In this document: piece by piece, positions 16,401 through 28,701 of the stretch
Numbering within the stretch: position 1 is the first letter of the stretch
Layout: each line of letters starts with the position of its first letter
Assembly (NCBI GenBank): GCA_026398135.1
Contig: JAPLTN010000022.1
Coordinates: 1 to 48,634, forward strand
Length of the DNA stretch: 48,634 bases
Origin: Verrucomicrobiota bacterium
GTDB lineage: Bacteria > Verrucomicrobiota > Verrucomicrobiia > Opitutales > Opitutaceae
Reading direction: 5' to 3'
The notes under the pieces: generated by a model
Seen by the model: the letters and a program-made list of their open reading frames with translations, nothing else
Told to the model about the DNA's origin: nothing
Database searches by the model: none
Made by a program: the position numbers and the translations under genes

Positions 16401-17575
16401 TGAACGAACGATTCCCCTTGCGGGTGGATCCTTCGGCGTGGGCGCAAAAACCACTGCCGGCCCACCTTTGTGTGCGTATCCGGGTGGTGGATGAAAAGGG
16501 CCGCGAGCTCTTCGCCGCGCGCGAGCTTGATGAGTTGGCGCGCTTGCTCGCCGATTATCAGCGTGCGGCCAGCGCCAAGGTGGCGCAGGATGCGCCGACC
16601 GCGTGGAGCCGGGCGCGGGAGAAGTGGGAAAAGCCGGACCAGATGGCTTGGACCTTTGGGGAAAAACTGCCCGAGCGCGTGGAGGTGTGCGTGCAAAACG
16701 GACTGACGATCTACGCGTATCCCGCGTTGAAAATCGGGACCTCCGGCGTGGCGCTGCGGCTCGCCCGCGACGTTGAGGAAGCGGCGGCGCAAACGCGGCT
16801 TGGGCTGGGGCGTTTGTTGGAGTTGGAGCTGCGTCACGAGCTGGCGTTTTTGCACAAAGAGTTGCGCGGCCTGCGCGAGCTGGGGGCTTTGCTCGCGACC
16901 TACTGTTCGTTGAACCAGCTTACGGAGGACGTGTCGGGGCTGTTTCAACGCTGGCTGTGCGCGCCGGAACGGGTGGCCGCACCGACCCAGACCGCGTTTT
17001 CCGCTGCCGTCGCGCAGGCCAGGCACGAGCTGCGCACTGCGGGTCCGAAGCTGTGCACAACGCTGCGGGAGGTTTTCACCCTGCGGGCGGCGCTGGAGGC
17101 ACACCCCGCGCCCTACCCGACGCTGGCGAGCGACCTGGCCCAGTTATTGCCGAAGACCTTGTTGCGCGAAATCGATTATGCGCGCCTCCAACACCTGCCG
17201 CGTTACTTGAAGGCGCTGAAACTGCGGGCCGAGCGCTGGCGGCAAAGCCCGGCGAAAGAGGCCGAGCGCAGCCGTGCGCTGGCTCCCTGGTTGGCACGGC
17301 AACGGGCACTGCCACGCAGCGATGCGCGCTACTGGCTGGTGGAAGAGTATCGGGTGAGTCTTTTTGCGCAGGAGCTGGGGACCGCCGAGGCCGTTAGCCC
17401 GCAGCGGTTGGAACGTGAATTTTCCCAGGCGGGCGGGGTGGCCGTCTCATCCAGCGCAGCTCCGATCGCGCCGCCCAAGTCCCCCGCGCCCCCGATATCG
17501 GTGCTCCCGGTCTCGGTCAAAAAAGGCGCGCCGCTCAAGTCGTTGGGTGCGCTGGGGGATTTGTTTCGGAAGTAG
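13448..17575 (+). CDS. hrpA: ATP-dependent RNA helicase, DEAH type
   Basis: A 1375-residue protein, slightly longer than E. coli HrpA (~1300). The Walker A motif GETGSGKTTQIPK lies near residue 50, the DEAH box in LDEAHERSLNIDF near residue 145, the SAT motif in VVTSATIDTEVF near 175, and motifs V and VI in ATNIAETSLTLPG and QRKGRAGRVAEG. The long C-terminal half (with VMVKQRTRLYGLEM and an RPGQPDDGVTLDI stretch) matches the HrpA-specific C-terminal region. It is a cytoplasmic 3'-5' RNA helicase involved in ribosome and mRNA handling. An unusual ~35-residue insertion (about residues 437-471), between the LLEELGAIVG and LTPLGRELARL blocks, is encoded by a palindromic repeat. The last ~40 bases overlap the convergent GntR gene. 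Confidence 0.92.
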   Translation: MSESQSSPNHTVPAPRFRIEFPVDLPISARAPEIVELLGRHQVLILAGETGSGKTTQIPKMCLAAGGGTRGQIACTQPRRVAALSVSRRVAEELNVTWGREVGCKIRFDDRTGRDTVVKFMTDGMLLAEVQSDPLLRAYDTIILDEAHERSLNIDFLLGHLRNLRFKRPELRIVVTSATIDTEVFSKAFDDAPIVQVSGRTFPVEVIYAPLDQLGSDSAEGDEPEARAEALHYVDGAVEAVERILSDREASGDILVFMPAERDIREACELLEGRHRQAEVIPLFGRLSQAEQQRIFATSQRRKIIVATNIAETSLTLPGIRFVVDTGLARVSRYVPAARTRRLPIEAVAQSSCDQRKGRAGRVAEGVCIRLYSEEDYNARPRFAQPEIQRANLADVILRMKAFGLGDIERFPFINMPAVKSIRAGYALLEELGAIVGSSPADDRAGVEVPAPERHSQENALRSGASQANELTPLGRELARLPVDPTVGRMIFQAREERALHEVLVIAAGLSIQDPRERPMDAREKADAAHRRFVHPDSDFLTLLAIWETFHDELERLSQARLRRFCRDHFLSYTRIREWRDIYAQLLDVLVTRKDFKMSSVFDGVAPADRTPDKIASGSPGYRAIHRSILSGLLGNIAARDEEAGGFRASHDRRIAMFPGSALHVRDEPRKKPADARQGAAKAAAAKAPRWIMAAEIMETSRLYARTAARLDPAWALELGRHLLKVSHSEPFWNVDAGRVMVKQRTRLYGLEMENRAVSYGKINPAHATEIFIREALVNDVITWPLDFLAHNREVRDELEHLLTRARDTGFLNLDEALYRFYADRLQPGRASDAPEDGVSAVQDLVALVRERRGRFPRFLMLAPEDLRDPASIPVDEVAFPAALPLGQSALPLSYTYRPGQPDDGVTLDISPADAARLTPIALDWAVPGHLALKVEHYLSSLPKEARRLFVPLAETVKQLAAAVAARDRLTDRREALPDALAACLNERFPLRVDPSAWAQKPLPAHLCVRIRVVDEKGRELFAARELDELARLLADYQRAASAKVAQDAPTAWSRAREKWEKPDQMAWTFGEKLPERVEVCVQNGLTIYAYPALKIGTSGVALRLARDVEEAAAQTRLGLGRLLELELRHELAFLHKELRGLRELGALLATYCSLNQLTEDVSGLFQRWLCAPERVAAPTQTAFSAAVAQARHELRTAGPKLCTTLREVFTLRAALEAHPAPYPTLASDLAQLLPKTLLREIDYARLQHLPRYLKALKLRAERWRQSPAKEAERSRALAPWLARQRALPRSDARYWLVEEYRVSLFAQELGTAEAVSPQRLEREFSQAGGVAVSSSAAPIAPPKSPAPPISVLPVSVKKGAPLKSLGALGDLFRK
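14797..14846. repeat. Palindromic repeat inserted in frame in hrpA
   Basis: CCGGAACG (14801-14808) pairs with CGTTCCGG (14831-14838), and GGCT (14797-14800) with AGCC (14843-14846). The core at 14806-14832 matches the core of intergenic element B (12325-12351) at 24 of 27 positions. It falls between conserved helicase blocks that are normally closer together, and the reading frame is kept. Confidence 0.6.
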
Positions 17576-18374
17576 CGGCGGCGGGCGCGCGGAAAGGGTT
17601 TTCCAAGGGTTCGTCGGTCGGATTCGGCGAACGTTGCCCGTGCGCGCGGCTGAGTGCTTGGGAAATGGCGATTTCGATCTGGTTGCGGGCGTGGTGGAGG
17701 TTTTGCCGGATCGCCCGGCGCGCCGCCTCGGTATCGCGTTGGGCGATGGCATCCAGAATCGCCAGATGTTCGCCTGCGGTGGTTTGAATACGGTGGGGCG
17801 TGGTGACGACGACGAGGCGAACGAAGCGCAGGCGGTCGTTGATATCGCGCATCGAGTCCACGATGTAGGGGTTGCCCAGCGCGCGGGCCATCGCGACGTG
17901 GAATTGCTCGTCCATGCGCACCAGCAGTTCGCCATCGACCGGAGCGTCGGCCCGAATGTTTAACCACGGCTCCCAGTGGGCGCGTTCCTGGGTCAGCCAC
18001 TCGGACGGCAGCCCCGCACGAGCCAGGCGCTCAACCACGAATAATTCGAGAGCCAGGCGAAGATCGTATAAGTGATGGGTGGCTTGGGCGTCGGGTTGAC
18101 GGACAAAACAGCCCTGATTAGGGACTTTTTCGACCAGGCCTTGCTCGACCAAGGCGCGCAAAGCCTCCCTCACCGGAACACGGCTGGCGGCGAATTCTTC
18201 ACTCAGTTCGGGTTCGCCCAAATGATGGCCCGGCGGGTAACTCCAATTTAGAATACGCTGGCGAATCTGTTGTAGAATCCTATGCCCCAGTTGATTAGGG
18301 GAAACATCACCTGTGGCGGAAAACGTCGGTGCGATCGAGGGGGTGCGTCGCGAACGGGACATCCAACCAATCAA
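17535..18374 (-). CDS. GntR-family transcriptional regulator (FadR/FCD subfamily)
   Basis: A 279-residue protein. The N-terminal winged helix (about residues 28-95) has the GntR pattern: LGHRILQQIRQRILNWSYPP, a second helix ELSEEFAASRVPVREALRAL and a wing with GLVEKVPNQGCFV. The following all-helical region (RLALELFVVERLA, DEQFHVAMARALGNP, EHLAILDAIAQRDTEAARRA) is the FCD ligand-binding domain, which usually senses a small carboxylic acid. It is divergent from the TonB receptor/AtzE operon and very likely controls it. Palindromes with GTATAC half-sites lie 34-65 bases upstream. The start may be ATG 18374 or ATG 18362. The 3' end overlaps hrpA by 41 bases tail to tail, and the last ~25 residues are low-complexity. 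Confidence 0.85.
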   Translation of the reverse strand: MIGWMSRSRRTPSIAPTFSATGDVSPNQLGHRILQQIRQRILNWSYPPGHHLGEPELSEEFAASRVPVREALRALVEQGLVEKVPNQGCFVRQPDAQATHHLYDLRLALELFVVERLARAGLPSEWLTQERAHWEPWLNIRADAPVDGELLVRMDEQFHVAMARALGNPYIVDSMRDINDRLRFVRLVVVTTPHRIQTTAGEHLAILDAIAQRDTEAARRAIRQNLHHARNQIEIAISQALSRAHGQRSPNPTDEPLENPFRAPAAATSETNPPAHPTT

Positions 18375-18407
18375 TGCCAGCGTATTGCCGATGGCAAGAA
18401 TCCATCA

Positions 18408-18439
18408 AAGTATACGTGTATACTTAAGTGTATCCACTT
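18408..18439. promoter_or_regulatory. Twin palindromic operator candidate between gntR and TonB receptor
   Basis: Two adjacent dyads: AAGTATACGTGTATACTT (18408-18425; arms of eight with a GT centre) and AAGTGTATCCACTT (18426-18439; arms AAGTG/CACTT). GTATAC cores are typical of operators of the FadR-type GntR family. The sites lie 33 bases from the regulator start and 58 from the receptor start, well placed for control of both. Confidence 0.6.
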
Positions 18440-18497
18440 TGGCATAAGGGCTGCTAAAAAGAGCTTAAGGTCATTTTTAACCACCTGTTTTCCACCT

Positions 18498-20960
18498 ATG
18501 CATTCCTCCCGTTCACATCGCGCCCGCCTAGCCGCCCTTACTCGTCCGCTTTGGCGTTCCGCCGTGGTTTTACCCGGCGCTTTTCTGGTTTTGGGTTCCG
18601 CCTCGTCCGTGCGCGCGCAAGCGACTGCCGCGCCGGTTAGCGGAGAGGTGGTTACTTTGGAGGCGATGACTACCACCGCCGCCGAGGCCGATCTTTACTC
18701 GGTATTGCCCACCCGGCCGACCAGCAGTGTTTTTGGAACCGAGCGCAGTTTGTTGGACACGCCGCGCTCCGTCACCTTGATCGAGGGTTCGCTGACCGAT
18801 CTTTACGGTATCCGTAACGTCAACGATTTCGTTTCCGTCACGTCCGGCACCTATACGGGCAACTATTTCGGCGTGCCGGGGGCGCTGACGGTTCGTGGCG
18901 CGTCGGCGGATAACTTTTTCCGTGGTTTTCGCCGGGTGGAAAACCGCGGAAACTATCCCACGGTGATCGGAGGCACGGACTATGTGGAGATTATCAAGGG
19001 GCCGCCGCCCCCGGTGTACGGCGGGGGCAAGGTGGGCGGTATTTTGAACTTCATTCCCAAGACCGCGAAGAGCAAAACCGCTCAGTATATCGACAAGCCC
19101 ACCGGAGAGGTGGTCGCCACGGTGGGGACTTACGACAAGAAGGTCGGCTCCATTGAATATGGCATGCCCTTCACCCTGCTCGGCAAAAAATCCGGGGCCT
19201 ACCTCTTCATTCAGGGCGAAGATTCCAAGAGCTACTACGATAACATTTATAACAAGAACCAGCTCTACCAAGTTTCGATCGATACCGAGTTAAACGACAC
19301 CACCCGGCTCGAATACGGCGGGATGGCGCAGATTTCCGACCTCAATCAAAGTCTCGGTTGGAACCGCGTCACACAGCGCATGATCGACACCGACGGCGAA
19401 TACCTCTCGGGCCGCCCGGCTAATATCAATACCAACGGCGACGCCTACCTGAGCCCAAGTGAGATCACCGCCGCAGGGGGCGGACTCATCCAGTTTACCT
19501 TCGCGCCGTCGGGCTTTCCTTATCAAGGAATCGTAAACCCCAAGATCTTCAATCTGGATCCTGCCACCGTGCGCACGGTGAAGTTGAGCCGCCACACGGT
19601 GCAGGCCGAAAAGATCGACTTCTCCAAATCCGCCACGATCACCGGATTCTTCGATATCATTAAGGACATCTCCCCCGACGCCACGTTGAAGAATCAGTCG
19701 TTCTACGACACGATGGATCATACCAAGTATTCGAGTTACGGCTTCGCCGCCGACTATCAGGCGACGGTTTTGGAAAATAAAACGACTTTTGACATTAAAA
19801 CCGAGCCCACTGACAGCATTCAGGTTAGCTATATTGCCGGGGGTTCTCTTCGTTATACGGACGGCTTTGAAAAAGAGTATCGCAGTAACGATCACCAAGC
19901 GCTCGATCGTCGCGATATCTCGGTTGGCGCAACCGGTAACGACCGGTTTCCCCGGCCCTTCCAGTTTGGCGCCGGCGACTATGAATGGCAGCAAAAGAGC
20001 AGTTTCACCGACACCGGTGCGTTCCTCGCGGTGGACTCCACGGTGCAGGAAAAACTCAACCTGCTCCTGAGCGGACGTATCGACAGCTACGATGTCTCGA
20101 ACACGGGCACCGCCGCCGTCCCCAGCCCGCTCACCGCCAGCAAGCAGAGCGATGTCGCCACCACCTACACCGGCAGCATCAGCTACAAGGTGACCCCCGG
20201 CCTCACTCCGTATTACACGCACTCCAAGGCCTCGTTCCTCGAACTTGGACAGGGCGGCATGGTTGCCAGCAGTAACTTGTTGAACGATTCCATCGTGCAG
20301 AAATCCACCCTCGACGAGGTAGGGATTAAAACCAGCGCTTTCGGTGGCCGACTCTTCGGCACCCTTGCGGTGTATAACCAGGAGAAGACGGGCTTTGATA
20401 CCAACGCCAACCTCGGCGATGGGATTAATACCTACACTTCCAAGGGACTTGAGATTGAGGTGCGCTATGCCCCCACCAAACAGTGGAGTTTCACGGCCGC
20501 CGCCACCGCTCAGGAAACCACGGTTGAAAAAGCCCCCATACTTCTTGGCGTATCTCCGGGCTACCTGGGCCTCGACCCCGCGCTCAACTACGGCGGTCGC
20601 TATTTTGGCCCCGGCGGCTCTCCCACGGGCCTCGGCCTGCCGGGTAAGCTAACCGTTCCCATACCGTCCGAAGTGTATTCCCTCGGCGTCACCTACACCA
20701 ATCCGAGCGGCTGGGGTGCTTACTTGGGTGAGACCTACGTGTCCGAGATGTACTCCGGTTACCTCAAACAGATCATGCTGCCGGAATACTTCGTCACCAA
20801 CGCGGCTTTGTTTTACAACTATAAGTCTTGGTCCGTGCGTCTGAACGCGAAGAACATCCTCGATACGAAATACTACACGCCGCAGGCTCTTTTCGAGGAG
20901 ACGTTTATCAGCCCCAGCCAAGGCCCGACCGCCGAGCTGACCGTCGCCTACAAGTTCTGA
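18498..20960 (+). CDS. TonB-dependent outer-membrane receptor
   Basis: An 820-residue protein. The signal peptide has a basic start (HSSRSHRARLAALTRPLWR), a hydrophobic core and cleavage near SVRA-QA. A short linker leads to a plug domain beginning SLLDTPRSVTLIEGS, with NFFRGFRRVEN, then DYVEIIKGPPPPVYGGGKVGG near residue 160, the hallmark end of the plug. The remainder is a beta-barrel rich in alternating aromatic strands and ends with LTVAYKF, a proper C-terminal Phe. It lacks an N-terminal carboxypeptidase-like or STN domain. It would bring a ligand across the outer membrane using TonB energy. Its place at the head of an amidase/hydrolase/permease operon implies a nitrogen-rich substrate rather than a siderophore, though this is inference. 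Confidence 0.88.
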   Translation: MHSSRSHRARLAALTRPLWRSAVVLPGAFLVLGSASSVRAQATAAPVSGEVVTLEAMTTTAAEADLYSVLPTRPTSSVFGTERSLLDTPRSVTLIEGSLTDLYGIRNVNDFVSVTSGTYTGNYFGVPGALTVRGASADNFFRGFRRVENRGNYPTVIGGTDYVEIIKGPPPPVYGGGKVGGILNFIPKTAKSKTAQYIDKPTGEVVATVGTYDKKVGSIEYGMPFTLLGKKSGAYLFIQGEDSKSYYDNIYNKNQLYQVSIDTELNDTTRLEYGGMAQISDLNQSLGWNRVTQRMIDTDGEYLSGRPANINTNGDAYLSPSEITAAGGGLIQFTFAPSGFPYQGIVNPKIFNLDPATVRTVKLSRHTVQAEKIDFSKSATITGFFDIIKDISPDATLKNQSFYDTMDHTKYSSYGFAADYQATVLENKTTFDIKTEPTDSIQVSYIAGGSLRYTDGFEKEYRSNDHQALDRRDISVGATGNDRFPRPFQFGAGDYEWQQKSSFTDTGAFLAVDSTVQEKLNLLLSGRIDSYDVSNTGTAAVPSPLTASKQSDVATTYTGSISYKVTPGLTPYYTHSKASFLELGQGGMVASSNLLNDSIVQKSTLDEVGIKTSAFGGRLFGTLAVYNQEKTGFDTNANLGDGINTYTSKGLEIEVRYAPTKQWSFTAAATAQETTVEKAPILLGVSPGYLGLDPALNYGGRYFGPGGSPTGLGLPGKLTVPIPSEVYSLGVTYTNPSGWGAYLGETYVSEMYSGYLKQIMLPEYFVTNAALFYNYKSWSVRLNAKNILDTKYYTPQALFEETFISPSQGPTAELTVAYKF

Positions 20961-20987
20961 GCTTTAGCACTGCTTCAATGGTTTCGC

Positions 20988-21013
20988 GCCGCCACCCGGT
21001 TCGGGTCGGCGGC
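20988..21013 (+). promoter_or_regulatory. Intra-operon GC hairpin between receptor and atzH-like gene
   Basis: GCCGCC (20988-20993) pairs with GGCGGC (21008-21013), with CCCG/CGGG inside. No T-run follows, so it is not a standard terminator. It may lower expression of the downstream genes relative to the receptor, or stabilise mRNA ends. Confidence 0.35.
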
Positions 21014-21057
21014 CCGAACTTTGCTAGGGCTGTTCCCCTGTTTGCCCTCCGCTTCCT

Positions 21058-21639
21058 ATGTTTCTGAACGATCCGAACCTCGTGCTCTCTCTGGCTGCAC
21101 TGCATGACGCGTATGAACGCGCCTTGGCGGCGAACGACGTGGCGGCGCTGACCGCGTTTTTTTGGAACTCCCCGCAGGTCGTGCGCTACGGCCCGGCGGA
21201 GCAACTCTACGGCGCGGATTCTGTGCAGGTTTATCGGCAAAATCATACTCCGGCCTATTCCGCCCGCCGCCTGATTAAGCGTGAAATCGCAACCTTCGGC
21301 CCCGACTTCGCGACGATCATGTCGGAGATAGCGTTGATCATCGACGGAGGCACTCGTTTGAACCGGCAGTCGCAAACCTGGGTCAACCTGCCCGGACTGG
21401 GCTGGCGCATCGTGGCCGCGCATGTATCGGTGCCAGCGGTTCCGGTCGCGGCCGAGCCCGCCGCCACCGGTTGGCAGGCCTATATCGATCTCATGGCGCT
21501 CACGCTTCAGCTGCCGTCCGCCGTGATTTATCGCGCCGGGGTTGCAGCTAACCTCGAACGCACGGCGGCACTCGCCGCTCCCTTGCTTTCGTTCCCGCTA
21601 TCAGACGAGGCCGAGCCGGCGCCGGTTTTTTCCGCATGA
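21058..21639 (+). CDS. AtzH-like (DUF3225/HpxZ) protein fused to an AtzG-like (DUF4089) tail
   Basis: A 193-residue protein. Residues 1-~125 match the SnoaL-fold AtzH/HpxZ family: AYERALAANDVAALTAFFW, VVRYGPAEQLYG, a TFGPDFATI strand, and RQSQTWVNLPGLGWRIVAAH. Residues ~138-193 resemble AtzG/HpxX: a YIDLMALTLQLP helix, then NLERTAALAAPLLSFPL and EAEPAPVF. In cyanuric-acid degraders AtzG is a separate small subunit that clamps AtzE, and AtzH acts on the dicarboxyurea product. Here the two are one chain. Its stop overlaps the start of the AtzE-like gene (ATGA), so the fusion protein and amidase are made together. The same family pair occurs in oxalurate (Hpx) clusters, so the substrate is not settled. 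Confidence 0.78.
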   Translation: MFLNDPNLVLSLAALHDAYERALAANDVAALTAFFWNSPQVVRYGPAEQLYGADSVQVYRQNHTPAYSARRLIKREIATFGPDFATIMSEIALIIDGGTRLNRQSQTWVNLPGLGWRIVAAHVSVPAVPVAAEPAATGWQAYIDLMALTLQLPSAVIYRAGVAANLERTAALAAPLLSFPLSDEAEPAPVFSA

Positions 21640-23045
21640 GCGCCGATCCCTGTTCTCCCCATGCCAGCGCCAGGGAAATCGCCGCAGCGGTGCGATCCCG
21701 GGTGGTTTCTGCGACGCAGGTGACCGCCGCCGCCTTGTCGCGGGTGGAGCGCACGCACGGACGCTTGAACGCATTCACCACCGTCACCGCCGAGCGTGCC
21801 CGACGCGAGGCGGCTGCGGTGGATGAGGCGCTGGCGGTCGGTCGCGATCTCGGCCCGCTCGCCGGGGTGCCTTACGCGGTTAAAGACCTTTTCGACCTCG
21901 CGGGCACAGTGACTTTTGCGGGCTCGAAAATCCTGCGGGAAAATCCACCTGCCGCGCACGACGCCACCGCCGTGACCCGCTTGCGCGTGGCGGGCGCGGT
22001 ATGCCTCGGCGCGGTAAACATGGGTGAGTTTGCCTATGACTTTGTGACCGAAAACGCCCACGCCGGAGCGACTCGGAATCCGCGCGATCTCAGCCGCTCC
22101 GCCGGAGGTTCTTCAGGCGGTTCGGCGGCGGCGGTTGCGGCCGGCCTGGTGCCGTTTTCTCTCGGCACCGATACCAACGGGTCAATTCGGGTGCCGTCTT
22201 CGTTTTGCGGGCTTTGGGGTTTGAAGCCGACCTATGGGCGTTTGTCGCGCGCGGGGACGTTTCCCTTTGTTTCCAGCTTGGATCATATCGGTCCTTTTGC
22301 GCGGGGCGTGGCGGACCTGGCACTCGCCTACGATGTGATGCAGGGCGCGGACCCGTTGGACCCGGCTTGCTCGGTGCGTCCGGTTGAGCTGGCCGGCCCC
22401 GTGCTCGGGGCGGGCATGGCCGGATTGCGCGTGGGGGTGCTGGGCGGGTATTTCGCGCAAGGGGGCGATCCCGCCGCGCATGCCGCCGTGAACACCGTCG
22501 CGTCCGCGCTCCGGGCGAGTCGTCGGGTGGAGTTGCCCGAGGTCGCCAGCGCTCGGGCCGCCGCGTTTGTGATCAGCGCCAGCGAAGGCGGACGCTTGCA
22601 TCTGGAGCGCCTGCGGACCCGCGCCGCCGATTTCGATCCGGCCTGTCGCGACCGCTTGCTGTCCGGGGCGATGCTGCCCGCCTCGTGGTATGTCCAGGCG
22701 CAGAAATTCCGCGCCTGGTGGCGCGGGCAGGTGCACGCGGTGTTTCGCGATTTCGACGTGTTGCTGGCTCCCGCCACACCCGTGCCCGCGACCCGGCTCG
22801 GACAGGAAACGATGACGCTGGACGGACGCGAACTGCCGGTGCGGCCGAACCTCGGGCTTTTCACTCAACCGATCAGTTTCATCGGTCTGCCGGTGGTGGC
22901 CGCGCCGATTCAACGGGCGGCGGGGGCTTTGCCACTGGCGGTGCAGTTGATCGGCGCGCCGTGGGCGGAGGCGACTTTGTTGCGGGTGGCGCGGCATTTG
23001 GAGCTCGCCGGGTGCTGTTCCGCTCCGGCCGCGCCCTTGGATTGA
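21636..23045 (+). CDS. AtzE/HpxY-family amidase (amidase-signature enzyme)
   Basis: A 469-residue amidase-signature protein. The Ser-cisSer-Lys triad is visible: Lys in [14 protein letters not shown] (~residue 79), the glycine/serine loop [16 protein letters not shown] with the cis-Ser (~155), and the nucleophile Ser in [15 protein letters not shown] (~180). The TFAGSKIL and [12 protein letters not shown] blocks are those of the AtzE branch, whose known members hydrolyse 1-carboxybiuret (AtzE) or are linked to oxalurate use (HpxY). It is cytoplasmic. It overlaps the upstream AtzH-AtzG fusion by four bases and is followed after seven bases by the biuret-hydrolase-like gene, so it is tightly operonic. 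Confidence 0.85.
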
Positions 23046-23052
23046 TTTTCTT

Positions 23053-23724
23053 ATGCCGACCATCGCCGCCGATCCTTATCCCTTCGCGTTTGAACCCACG
23101 GCGTGCGCCTTGCTGATCATTGATATGCAGCGCGATTTTCTGGAGCCGGGAGGCTTCGGTGCTGCGCTGGGCAACGACGTTGCGCAGTTGCGGCGCGCCA
23201 TCGGGCCCAACGTGCGCCTGCTGGCCGCCTGGCGCGCGGCGGGTTTGCCGGTGCTGCATACGCGGGAGGGGCATCCGCCCGATCTGGGCGATTTGCCGCC
23301 CAGCAAACATACACGCGCGCCGGAGGGCGGCCTGCGCATCGGCGATGCCGGCCCGATGGGGCGAATCTTGGTGCAAGGCGAGCCGGGCCATGCGTTGATC
23401 CCGGAACTGGCGCCGCGCCCCGGAGAAACGGTAATAGACAAGCCCGGCAAGGGTGCCTTTTACGCCACCGCGCTGGATGCCTGCTTACGGGAGCTGGGCG
23501 TGCGCCAACTTGTGGTGACCGGCGTGACGACCGAGATCTGCGTCCAGTCCACGGTTCGCGAGGCCAACGACCGGGGTTACGACTGTCTGGTGCCGTCCGA
23601 CTGCACCGCGTCCTATTTTCCGCATTTCCACACTGCCGCCCTCGCGATGATTGCCGCCCAAGGCGGTATTCTCGGGTGGGTGACGCATTCCGACCATCTG
23701 CTGCCCGCGCTTGAAAGCCTATGA
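23053..23724 (+). CDS. biuH: Isochorismatase-fold cysteine hydrolase, biuret amidohydrolase-like
   Basis: A 223-residue protein. The catalytic set of the isochorismatase-like hydrolases is present: Asp in [11 protein letters not shown], Lys in [13 protein letters not shown], a cis-peptide at [11 protein letters not shown] and the nucleophilic Cys in that same EICVQST block. Long stretches agree with the biuret hydrolase BiuH of Rhizobium as I remember it: ADPYPF near the start, [38 protein letters not shown] and [11 protein letters not shown]. BiuH converts biuret to allophanate plus ammonia. Ureidoacrylate (RutB) hydrolases are the main alternative. It overlaps the permease start by four bases. 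No allophanate hydrolase (AtzF) is present in the window, so further breakdown must be encoded elsewhere. Confidence 0.75.
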
Positions 23725-25310
23725 ACACCACCGCTGCCTCTTCCGTTGCCGCCACGCCGATTCGCCCCCGCCTTTGGGTGTCGGGAGATTGGAACGCCTT
23801 CTTCGGCTTCGGCACCAATATTCTCGTCAACCTGCTCACGCTCACCGCCCTCCTGCGCTTCGTGCTCGGGTTTCCCGACGAATTGGTCTTTGGCCGCATC
23901 CTGCCGGCGGTCGGTCTTATGCTCTGCTTATCGACCGGTTACTACGCTTGGCTGGCTTATGATTTGGCCCGGAAGACCGGACGAAGCGACGTCTGCGCGC
24001 TGCCTTCCGGTCCCGGCGTCGGGCACATGTTCATCGTGGTGTTTGCGGTGATGCTGCCGATCAAACTTCAGACCGGGGATCCGGTCAAAGCGTGGGAGGC
24101 CGGCCTTACGTGGGTGGTCATCCAGAGCTTCGTGCTGATGCTGGGCGGCTTTATCGGACCCTGGGTGCGGCGGGTGACGCCGCGCGCGGCCTTGCTCGGA
24201 ACTTTGGCGGGGGTGTCGATCACGTTTATCTCGATGCGGCCCGCGCTGCAAATGCTGCTCACCCCGGTGATCGGCCTGGTGTGCTTCGCAATACTGTTGG
24301 TCAACTGGTTCGGGGGCGTGCGTTTTTTTCGCGGATTGCCGGCCGGGTTGGTTGCGTTGCTGACGGGAACGGTGATCGCCTGGGGTTCTACGTATTTCGA
24401 TCTTAATTACGGAGGGCTTTCGTTGGCCGGACTGGGCGCGGCGTTTTCCCGGTTCGGGTTTAGTCTGCCTCTGCCTGTTATCGGGCATGTTTTTTCCGGC
24501 TTCGAGTTTTTGGGTCTGTTGTTGGTCACGGCGATTCCCTTCGGCCTCTACGACTTGATCGAGGCGCTGGACAACGTGGAGAGCGCGGCGGTGGCGGGGG
24601 ACAGTTTTCCGACCACGCGGGTTTTGTGCGCGGATGGCGCGGTCAGCTTGATCGGTGCGATAGTCGGCTGTCCTTTCATGCTCGCGGTGTATATCGGGCA
24701 TCCGGGTTGGAAGGCGATGGGCGGCCGTATCGGCTATTCCTTGGCCACCGGAGGCATGGTCATTGTGCTGTGCTGGTTGGGCATCGTGCCTGCCCTGCTC
24801 GCCCTGGTACCGGTCGTGGCGATTTTGCCCATTCTGCTTTATATCGGCATGTTGATCGGGTCGCAGGCGTTTCAGGAGACGCCGCATCGGCATGCACCTG
24901 CGGTGATTTTGGCCATGGTGCCGCATCTCGCGGCTTGGGCGCTGGGGCAGGTAAACGGGGCGCTGGCGGCGGCCGGTGCGGCGCGTACTCCGGAACTTGT
25001 CGCGAATTTGGAGAATCAGGGCGTGTTGCTGCACGGTTTGGAGATTCTCGGAGGCGGCGCGGCCCTGTCGGGTATCGTTTTTGCGGCGATCACCGTTTTC
25101 GTAATTGAACACAAACTGCGCCATGCGGCGGCCTTCGCGATCGCAGGAGCCCTGTTTACCCTGTTCGGGTTGATGCACGGTGAACGGGTCGGTTTAACCC
25201 CGCATCCCGGCGTGGCGGTGGGGTATTTGTTGGTGGCGGCGTTTCTTGCGGTGTGTGATCGCTACTCGCCTCGTGGCGAACGCAGTGAGCCGCAGCATAA
25301 CCAGGATTGA
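23721..25310 (+). CDS. NCS2/AGZA-like purine-pyrimidine-type permease
   Basis: A 529-residue membrane protein with about 12-13 hydrophobic segments. It starts with [19 protein letters not shown], and a short polar motif [12 protein letters not shown] sits near residue 95 where NCS2 and AGZA permeases place their substrate loop. The second half has the inverted-repeat-like region [20 protein letters not shown]. Such permeases carry uracil, xanthine, adenine or related heterocycles across the inner membrane, usually with protons. As last gene of the operon it is the natural inner-membrane partner of the TonB receptor. The C-terminal tail ([14 protein letters not shown]) has the look of translated REP-like repeat DNA rather than protein sequence under selection. 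Confidence 0.75.
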
Positions 25311-28016: not shown

Positions 28017-28060
28017 AGGAAAAGCTTGCAGGTTTTTAGGGAAAAGTCATATTTCGCGTG

Positions 28061-28264
28061 ATGAAAATCACGGTAGAATTAGATGATGCCACCATGAACG
28101 AACTGATGGCGGTGACCAACGAGCACAAAAAAGGGCCTGCGGTTGCGCAGGCCGTCAGCGAGTTTTTGAAGCGCAAAAAGGCCAAGGAGTTTGGGCGCTT
28201 GTTGATGGAAGGGGCCTTTGATTATCCGGCGCCGACGGCCGAGACTGAGCGCCAAGGTTACTGA
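28061..28264 (+). CDS. vapB: VapB-like antitoxin
   Basis: A 67-residue protein beginning MKITVELDDATMNELM, the beta-strand plus helix of a short ribbon-helix-helix/VapB-type DNA-binding domain. The middle is basic (KRKKAKEF) and the C-terminus acidic with FDYPAPTAETERQGY, which probably wraps the toxin. A GTG codon directly before the ATG could also serve. The PIN-domain toxin gene starts 11 bases downstream, the usual antitoxin-first order. Confidence 0.8.
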   Translation: MKITVELDDATMNELMAVTNEHKKGPAVAQAVSEFLKRKKAKEFGRLLMEGAFDYPAPTAETERQGY

Positions 28265-28275
28265 GGATACGCCCG

Positions 28276-28701
28276 ATGGTATTGGTGGATTCCTCGATTT
28301 GGATAGAGGCGGCGCGGCGTCAGGGAGACCTTGCGACCAAGGTCGCCCTGCGCGCCTTGCTGGATGAATACGAGGCGGCGTGGTGTTCGCCGGTGAAATT
28401 GGAAGTGCTGGGCGGCGCGAGACGTGAAGAGCGGAGGGCCTTGGAGCTGTTTTTCGGGGTTATACCGTATGCGGAGTGTCGCGAAGCGGAATGGGAGGCG
28501 GCGAAGGCGCTGGCTTGGCGGGCGCGGGATGCAGGGCATACGGTGCCTTGGAACGACTTTTTGATCTCGGCCACGGCAGCGGCGCGCGGTTGGCGGGTTT
28601 ATGCGAAGGACGCGCATTTCGCCACCTTGGCCGCACTGGGCGGCGCGCCGCTTTACCGTCCTGGTTATGGAGGCAGTTATCAGCCTGAGCCGGAAGAGTA
28701 G
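28276..28701 (+). CDS. vapC: PIN-domain ribonuclease toxin VapC
   Basis: A 141-residue protein. PIN-domain acidic residues are visible: Asp 5 in MVLVDSSIWIEAAR, Glu in SPVKLEVLGGARREE (~residue 43), Asp in TVPWNDFLISATAAA (~94) and Asp in YAKDAHFATLA (~112). Such toxins cut tRNA or rRNA in a Mg-dependent way and are held inactive by VapB. The last ~10 residues (SYQPEPEE) are unstructured. The pair stands alone between clpB and an empty stretch; there is no sign of transposase genes. Confidence 0.85.
   Translation: MVLVDSSIWIEAARRQGDLATKVALRALLDEYEAAWCSPVKLEVLGGARREERRALELFFGVIPYAECREAEWEAAKALAWRARDAGHTVPWNDFLISATAAARGWRVYAKDAHFATLAALGGAPLYRPGYGGSYQPEPEE

Follow-up and report, generated by a model that had tools for sequence, protein, structure and literature searches.

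A five-gene operon led by a putative outer-membrane receptor

The DNA analysed here, hereafter the window, is a 48,634-nucleotide contig (JAPLTN010000022.1) of the 3.39-Mb draft genome (GCA_026398135.1, here G000; completeness 99.86%) of a Verrucomicrobiota bacterium of the family Opitutaceae. Our subject is a set of six genes at positions 17535-25310, in which a regulator gene on the reverse strand stands divergent from five genes on the forward strand that encode, in order, a receptor, an AtzH-AtzG fusion, AtzE, a hydrolase and a permease. An earlier note, made from the sequence of the window alone, had described a GntR/FCD regulator divergent from a five-gene unit, and all six genes were confirmed. 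The junctions of the five-gene unit are, in order, a 97-bp gap, a 4-bp overlap, a 7-bp gap and a 4-bp overlap, three of the four being tight as the note had stated.

The GntR/FCD transcriptional regulator (17535-18362, reverse strand) matches PF00392 (58.9 bits) and PF07729 (80.9 bits). Its reading frame can be extended to a TTG at 18374, and the likely start is the ATG at 18362, given the MSRSRR start that it has in common with its ortholog at locus L031; orthologs 56-84% identical occupy the same divergent position in loci L030-L033. The predicted TonB-dependent outer-membrane receptor (18498-20960, forward strand, 820 amino acids) starts at the ATG at 18498 rather than at 18282. It was assigned from its Plug domain (PF07715, 26.0 bits against a cut-off of 23.9) and from the conservation of its orthologs, and its N-terminus looks signal-peptide-like by eye.

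The fusion gene (21058-21639, forward strand) carries an AtzH domain at about 21064-21432 (PF11533, 133.7 bits) and an AtzG domain at about 21481-21630 (PF13318, 52.3 bits). The AtzH domain matches the AtzH structure 6bjt with 97.3 bits; the putative catalytic pair Tyr22/Arg46 is retained as Y19/R43, and Arg63, Arg73, Gln106 and Gln108 are also retained. The following gene (21636-23045, forward strand) encodes an AtzE-family amidase, the predicted 1-carboxybiuret hydrolase subunit, which scored 686.5 bits against TIGR02715 (cut-off 425.75) and 705.3 bits against NF006631 (cut-off 461); among solved structures AtzE 6c62 gave 518.7 bits and the next family, GatA, 245.6 bits. These matches bear out the AtzE, AtzG and AtzH assignments made in the earlier note.

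Allophanate hydrolase AtzF, which the note had reported as absent, is indeed missing from the window but is encoded on contig C3 of the same genome (819 bits, cut-off 511), where it is preceded by a gene of 1201 amino acids, judged by eye to be a urea carboxylase, and by ABC genes judged by eye to be urea-type. Full-length AtzF also lies directly 3′ of the permease in the sister operons L048, L049, L051 and L057. The genome search for atzF and ureases that the note had proposed thus returned AtzF, while no urease alpha subunit was found in the genome in a search in which four control genomes were positive. AtzD, likewise noted earlier as absent, was not found in the genome either, with 0 matches to PF09663 in G000 and 2 in the positive control G033.

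Apart from G000, 56 relatives were searched for AtzE, and orthologs of at least 55% identity were found in 5. Four of these genomes (G005, G006, G018 and G027) have the regulator, receptor, AtzHG and AtzE genes in the order of the window; in the fifth, G033, AtzH and AtzE adjoin an AtzD-family gene instead. Additionally, a collection of 84,980 species was scanned with an alignment pattern of the permease, and the best 80 of 476 relatives were used; among these 80, L046, L047, L048, L049, L051, L052 and L057 are further distinct loci of the same build. Two others are not independent, L045 being the same contig as G005/L030 and the genome of L044 looking the same as G006 (the place and score of AtzE are identical). 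In all, the order regulator-receptor-AtzHG-AtzE is kept in 11 other distinct loci, with the hydrolase and the permease next in 10 of the 11; in the remaining one, G006, the contig stops within the hydrolase gene. The receptor is 55-67% identical in all 11 other AtzE-type verrucomicrobial loci, and a single open frame encodes both the AtzH and the AtzG domain in all eight verrucomicrobial loci examined. The conserved unit is far from chance, and the pairing of receptor and AtzE, on which the earlier note had staked its proposal, is retained in relatives.

Identity of the hydrolase and order of the steps

The fourth gene of the operon (23053-23724, forward strand) encodes an isochorismatase-like cysteine hydrolase, called BiuH-like in the earlier note. 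Its best match among solved structures was TrtA (6xix, 269.7 bits), followed by two biuret hydrolases (253.9 bits and, for BiuH 6azo, 223.3 bits), and a second TrtA structure, 6xj4, was also among the best solved matches. The catalytic triad is present (D24, K130 and C163; Asp24, Lys129 and Cys162 in TrtA), as are the substrate residues (E72, K133 and Q203; Glu72, Lys132 and Gln202 in TrtA). Six positions discriminate TrtA from BiuH (F35, N41, A134, E160, Y187 and I205 in TrtA; PMC7948467). At these positions the hydrolase of the window has the TrtA state six times out of six (F35, N41, A135, E161, Y188, I206) and the BiuH state (Y, Y, S, D, T, V) in none. The string FNAEYI was found in 80 of 85 TrtA-type rows and 0 of 32 BiuH-type rows, and YYSDTV in 29 of 32 BiuH-type rows; the TrtA and BiuH labels were taken from the better BLAST match and the residue split is thus partly built in, though the pattern is clean.

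Against the NCBIfam model for BiuH (NF050097, cut-off 370) the hydrolase scored 262.1 bits, 108 bits short; four of four BiuH-type proteins scored 416-428, and six of six TrtA-type proteins, that of the window included, 246-275. A tree was built from 78 of 120 rows, comprising all references, the early loci, nine chosen loci and a random 30 TrtA-type and 16 BiuH-type rows. In this tree a branch with support of 98/85 groups the hydrolase with 6XIX and the gene in the TrtA position in Rhizobium leguminosarum, against the BiuH-type proteins and RutB, although a second supported branch, described below, parts 6XIX from the larger group of the window. A BiuH query at E 1e-20 matched only the TrtA-type gene in G000, G005, G006, G018 and G027, and no BiuH-type gene was found at this threshold in the window's own genome. 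Taken together, these sequence comparisons indicate that the hydrolase is TrtA-type, a predicted triuret hydrolase, and not BiuH as the earlier note had supposed.

A biuret operon would nonetheless account for part of the data: here a divergent biuret hydrolase would form allophanate directly, and AtzE, AtzG and AtzH would serve a second compound or mop up carboxybiuret. The hydrolase is 53% identical to a BiuH-type protein, no NCBIfam model other than that of BiuH matches it under 1e-40, and the catalytic residues are common to TrtA and BiuH. However, the shortfall against the BiuH cut-off and the six TrtA-type positions speak for a different enzyme, and TrtA-type and BiuH-type genes occur together in 31 of the 80 permease loci, hence the former is no stand-in for the latter there. 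For comparison, the kinetics of Herbaspirillum TrtA on biuret lie orders of magnitude below those on triuret. We regard a biuret operon as quite improbable.

TrtA yields ammonia and 1-carboxybiuret, and the latter has a half-life to biuret near 20 minutes (PMC7948467). The same paper remarks, in the context of cyanuric acid, that AtzEG can act on the carboxybiuret formed by TrtA, and PMC6219798 describes deamination of 1-carboxybiuret by AtzEG and the probable conversion of 1,3-dicarboxyurea to allophanate by AtzH. Because the product of TrtA is the substrate of AtzEG, the operon can be read as leading from triuret, a small polymer of urea, through 1-carboxybiuret, 1,3-dicarboxyurea and allophanate to ammonia. 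Since the hydrolase appears TrtA-type, triuret would be the best-fitting entry substrate, and 1-carboxybiuret would be an internal intermediate rather than an import. The pathway as a whole is probably a nitrogen-scavenging route for triuret in which biuret is bypassed. The earlier proposal of one pathway for a small nitrogen compound, in an operon led by a TonB receptor, thus holds, together with the conserved order and the AtzE, AtzG and AtzH assignments. Its candidate entry compounds fared otherwise: biuret and oxalurate are disfavoured by the TrtA-type hydrolase, oxalurate also by scores below the cut-offs of the Hpx models, and carboxybiuret by its place inside the pathway.

The case for oxalurate is that AtzE, AtzG and AtzH would be HpxY, HpxX and HpxZ as in the enterobacterial hpxWXYZ clusters, which encode related AtzE, AtzG and AtzH family proteins, with the hydrolase acting on a related ureide. 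For the two AtzHG domains the best NCBIfam names are HpxZ and HpxX, and many Proteobacteria have AtzG-AtzE-AtzH clusters that lack AtzD and AtzF (PMC6219798). Both Hpx models are nevertheless below cut-off (115.9 of 135 and 34.1 of 70), and, unlike the hpx clusters, the operon has a TrtA-type hydrolase and a permease. A search confined to the six genes, not extended to the genome, revealed neither an HpxW-like nor an allantoate gene, and AtzF in sister operons and BiuH replacing AtzE in related clusters (see below) both point to allophanate. An oxalurate operon is therefore very improbable in our estimation.

Second-step genes around the permease family

A TrtA-type gene lies within 700 bp of the permease in 75 of the 80 loci. 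The five exceptions are L112, where AtzE stands between the TrtA-type gene and the permease, and L056, L069, L080 and L087, in whose flanks a TrtA-type gene was not seen. As second-step genes the flanks contain BiuH in 31 loci, AtzE in 12, both in 0 and neither in 37, and under random placement, with relatedness ignored, zero overlap of BiuH and AtzE has a p of 0.0015. The flank was shorter than 5 kb on one side in 16 of the 37 'neither' loci, 6 of the 12 AtzE loci and 10 of the 31 BiuH loci. Genome-wide, AtzE (E 1e-100 or better) was found in 0 of 16 BiuH-type genomes, a non-random set chosen by hand out of the 31, and in 26 of the 37 'neither' genomes (Fisher p 1.2e-6). The surroundings also differ: a cupin gene, no more than a candidate TrtB, lies near 23 of 31 BiuH-type, 0 of 12 AtzE-type and 3 of 37 other loci, and 8 of the 31 BiuH-type loci have an ABC gene of BMP type (so named by eye in L059), as in the annotated R. 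leguminosarum cluster.

Seven loci from Afipia, Tardiphaga and Bradyrhizobium (L089, L098, L099, L103, L108, L110 and L123) have the TrtA-type gene, the permease and AtzF in a row. Their genomes belong to the 37 with neither second-step gene in the flanks, and all seven encode AtzE elsewhere; a BiuH query in these genomes matched only the TrtA-type gene (50-51%) and distant sequences (29-33%).

AtzE is near the permease in three of four plasmid loci whose permease is at least 60% identical. The plasmid of Terrarubrum flagellatum has the TrtA-type gene, permease, AtzF, AtzG, AtzE and AtzH in a row, with ABC genes upstream. The plasmid of Paroceanicella profunda has AtzH, hydrolase, permease, AtzG and AtzE, that of Microvirga ossetica AtzH, hydrolase, permease and AtzE, and the locus on the plasmid of Methylobacterium bullatum the hydrolase and permease only. 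The betaproteobacterial locus L112 (2858-6883) encodes a TrtA 66% identical to the crystallised one, AtzE and the permease, a clean pairing outside Verrucomicrobiota.

Uptake, control and the proposed pathway

The last gene of the operon (23721-25310, forward strand) encodes an inner-membrane permease of an unnamed family, assigned from its linkage to TrtA-type genes and from an AlphaFold2 model (pLDDT 78.8) with a UraA/UapA/SVCT/SLC26-like fold. In VIA-align comparisons the model gave Z scores of 26.8 to UapA 5i6c and 25.0 to UraA 8omz, and, among the 50 rows listed, of 21-27 to structures of UapA, UraA, SVCT1, AZG and SLC26. By sequence, none of 42 family members had a Pfam match at 0.01, PF00860 included, and a profile of the family searched against PDB sequences returned one weak match, to an unrelated chain of 96 residues. 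The NCS2-like label of the earlier note thus stands as to the fold, which the model suggests is shared with NCS2, SLC23 and SLC26 transporters, but not as to a Pfam family.

Members of the permease family are annotated 'regulator' in the plasmid records NZ_CP091852 and NZ_CP040819, probably a naming error given the membrane-protein model, and Escherichia coli and Klebsiella plasmids carry a relative 37% identical that is mostly annotated as a hypothetical protein. On a Peptoclostridium acidaminophilum plasmid (L043, 5655-14417), two distant permeases (40-41%) flank a TrtA-like hydrolase. DUF2877, FdrA, DUF1116 and carbamate kinase genes are also present at this locus, which might encode a form of ureide breakdown that proceeds by carbamoyl transfer.

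The receptor has weak matches to the receptors 9rvq and 3qlb, its C-terminal part scoring 49.5 bits against 9rvq, and the barrel model PF00593 was not reported for it at 0.001. The TonB receptor of this operon is present in 8 of the 80 permease loci, all of them AtzE-type and verrucomicrobial. The nearest other receptor seen is 33% identical (G033, locus L037) and adjoins an AtzD-family ring-opening amidohydrolase and a PF00860 permease, a context that fits a group of receptors for ureides and nitrogen heterocycles. The two G033 clusters (L034, 8404-11484; L037, 999-8939) contain AtzD-family ring-opening amidohydrolases and AtzE or another amidase, one cluster with AtzH and the other with the PF00860 permease and this receptor, and look like heterocycle catabolism with TonB uptake in the same family. 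The solubility of triuret is low, about 1 mM (PMC7948467), and this and scarcity could be reasons for a TonB receptor in the operon of the window.

The intergenic region between regulator and receptor contains three operator-like half-sites on the forward strand, GTATAC at 18410-18415, GTATAC at 18418-18423 and GTATCC at 18430-18435, and a putative sigma-54-like -24/-12 promoter, TGGCATAAGGGCTGCT (18440-18455, forward strand), of the form GG-N10-GC. Counted from the -24 element, the second half-site starts 22 bp upstream and the third 10 bp upstream. GG-N10-GC is the sigma-54 promoter consensus, and sigma-54 is linked to nitrogen limitation. The promoter was assigned from the orthologous intergenic regions and from the presence of rpoN (sigma-54) in the same genome (PF04552, 197.9 bits). 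An element YGGCAY-N6-TGCT is present in 12 of 12 GntR/TonB intergenic regions, against a background of 0.068 per kb per strand, and in all 12 GTATMC starts exactly 10 and/or 22 bp upstream of the TGGC element (background for GTATAC, 0.036 per kb). A genome scan with the operator pattern, allowing up to 2 mismatches, found a single site and no wider GntR regulon; therefore the regulator looks local. The operator-like repeats and the sigma-54-like promoter fit control by nitrogen starvation.

A further sigma-54-like site of the same genome lies at C78:46750-46765 (reverse strand). The region around it (L036, 1-16001; C78:40000-56000), which may be a second cluster for nitrogen scavenging, contains an adenine-deaminase-like gene (PF13382), an amidase-family gene and, by eye, genes for an amidohydrolase and a RidA-like protein. 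Within the window, 28058-28701 encodes a VapB antitoxin (PF09957) and a PIN-domain VapC-like protein (PF01850), an ordinary toxin-antitoxin pair.

On these grounds the following pathway is proposed. Under nitrogen limitation the sigma-54 promoter, gated by the divergent GntR/FCD regulator, would switch on the five genes. The TonB receptor would carry the polyurea over the outer membrane and the UraA-fold permease over the inner membrane. The TrtA-type hydrolase would convert triuret to 1-carboxybiuret and ammonia. AtzE with AtzG would convert 1-carboxybiuret to 1,3-dicarboxyurea and a second ammonia, ahead of its decarboxylation to biuret. AtzH would then yield allophanate, from which AtzF, encoded elsewhere in the genome beside the urea carboxylase-like gene, would release the last two ammonia. 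We infer the enzyme activities, the ligands of receptor and permease, the activity of the promoter and the direction in which the GntR regulator acts, and assign triuret as the ligand of the receptor with less confidence than the pathway as a whole.

Several observations weigh against this reading. The AtzH pocket has His, Ile and Leu in place of Arg66, Phe94 and Arg96, and models of the AtzE family also cover oxalurate enzymes. In the hydrolase tree, whose outgroup is very long and whose bootstrap had not settled, a branch with support of 95/83 places 6XIX and four kin (two of which, L084 and L112, are themselves permease-linked) on the BiuH/RutB side, apart from the larger group of the window, which could be a third kind of enzyme. 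The alternation of BiuH and AtzE is not significant after correction for relatedness (3 supported independent pairs, median p 1), and the three pairs are never in the same direction, the corrected test lacking power. There was no AtzE match in 11 of the 37 'neither' genomes, and on a plasmid of Azospirillum sp. B510 (L042, 1-8663) TrtA-type, BiuH, AtzE and AtzH genes stand together within 8.7 kb, without the permease, the only locus seen with both second steps. Triuret has a mass of about 146 Da and should pass ordinary porins, a TonB receptor being not obviously needed. Finally, the sigma-54 pattern, like the operator pattern, was chosen after viewing these sequences, and is weak genome-wide (22 matches against 12 in a reversed control); the strength of the sigma-54-like element is its conserved position, not a genome-wide pattern.

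Some of these points, with others, would suit a larger or different entry compound, trimmed by these enzymes to carboxybiuret or allophanate. It could be guanylurea, a product of purine oxidation, a polyurea longer than triuret or a ureide in complexed form. A TonB receptor suggests a scarce or bulky ligand, its nearest other relative stands beside the ring-opening amidohydrolase and PF00860 permease of L037, guanylurea hydrolases belong to the same protein family as the hydrolase (PMC9800807), and the 95/83 branch splits the hydrolase group of the window from crystallised TrtA. However, TrtA of Herbaspirillum is described as ultraspecific, and neither tetrauret nor pentauret gave detectable activity (PMC7948467). 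The operon also lacks an extra trimming enzyme, and in L038 and L059 the same pair of TrtA-type gene and permease is accompanied by ABC genes, with no TonB gene seen. A different entry compound thus seems unlikely to us, and triuret is retained as the preferred substrate.

Compared with known systems, the operon would be a triuret pathway in recombined form that has uptake and control of its own. The triuret pathway of Herbaspirillum sp. BH-1 and R. leguminosarum (TrtA, TrtB, BiuH, AtzF; PMC7948467) has the same TrtA-type first enzyme with the same specificity residues, and likewise ends in allophanate and AtzF. In the window, AtzE, AtzG and AtzH would replace decarboxylation and BiuH, so that biuret need not be an intermediate, and a TonB receptor and the unnamed permease stand where R. 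leguminosarum has BMP-type ABC genes. The cyanuric acid operon atzDGEHF of Pseudomonas sp. ADP (PMC6219798) has the AtzE, AtzG, AtzH and AtzF steps from 1-carboxybiuret to ammonia in common with the proposed pathway. In the window, by contrast, the carboxybiuret would come from triuret through the TrtA-type hydrolase, not from cyanuric acid through AtzD; AtzH and AtzG are fused, and AtzF is on another contig. The permease, whose modelled fold appears to be that of NCS2 (UraA, UapA) and SLC26 transporters, differs from these in having no match to PF00860 or any other Pfam model and in its link to polyurea hydrolases. A recent study (PMC12625717, 2025) describes trtA, trtB, biuH and atzF in nitrifiers. 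In the literature searched, with subscription papers mostly outside its scope, neither a TrtA-AtzEGH cluster nor a TonB receptor for biuret or triuret was announced by the papers listed, as judged from titles and the openings of abstracts.

We tentatively suggest, as a broader possibility that falls somewhat short of probable, that there is a second triuret pathway (TrtA, AtzEG, AtzH, AtzF), one without biuret, and that it extends over at least two phyla, the Verrucomicrobiota and the Pseudomonadota. As parts of the same suggestion, it would be coupled in Opitutaceae-like Verrucomicrobiota to a TonB receptor of its own, serving as an energised importer of a small polyurea at the outer membrane, and to a permease as founder of an unnamed family of polyurea transporters with the UraA fold, and AtzG-AtzE-AtzH would in part be a triuret module that served before s-triazine herbicides existed. 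PMC6219798 left open the role that AtzG-AtzE-AtzH clusters play where AtzD is lacking, as it is in many genomes. A TrtA-type enzyme next to these genes would be the missing source of 1-carboxybiuret and would make that question testable with one substrate. If correct, the pathway would add a new branch to the known triuret route and explain why AtzE occurs in genomes with a TrtA-type gene but without BiuH. It would also give a function to a permease family of hundreds of members annotated 'regulator' or 'xanthine permease', and would suggest that triuret serves in nature as a nitrogen source of enough value to justify an active receptor in the outer membrane.

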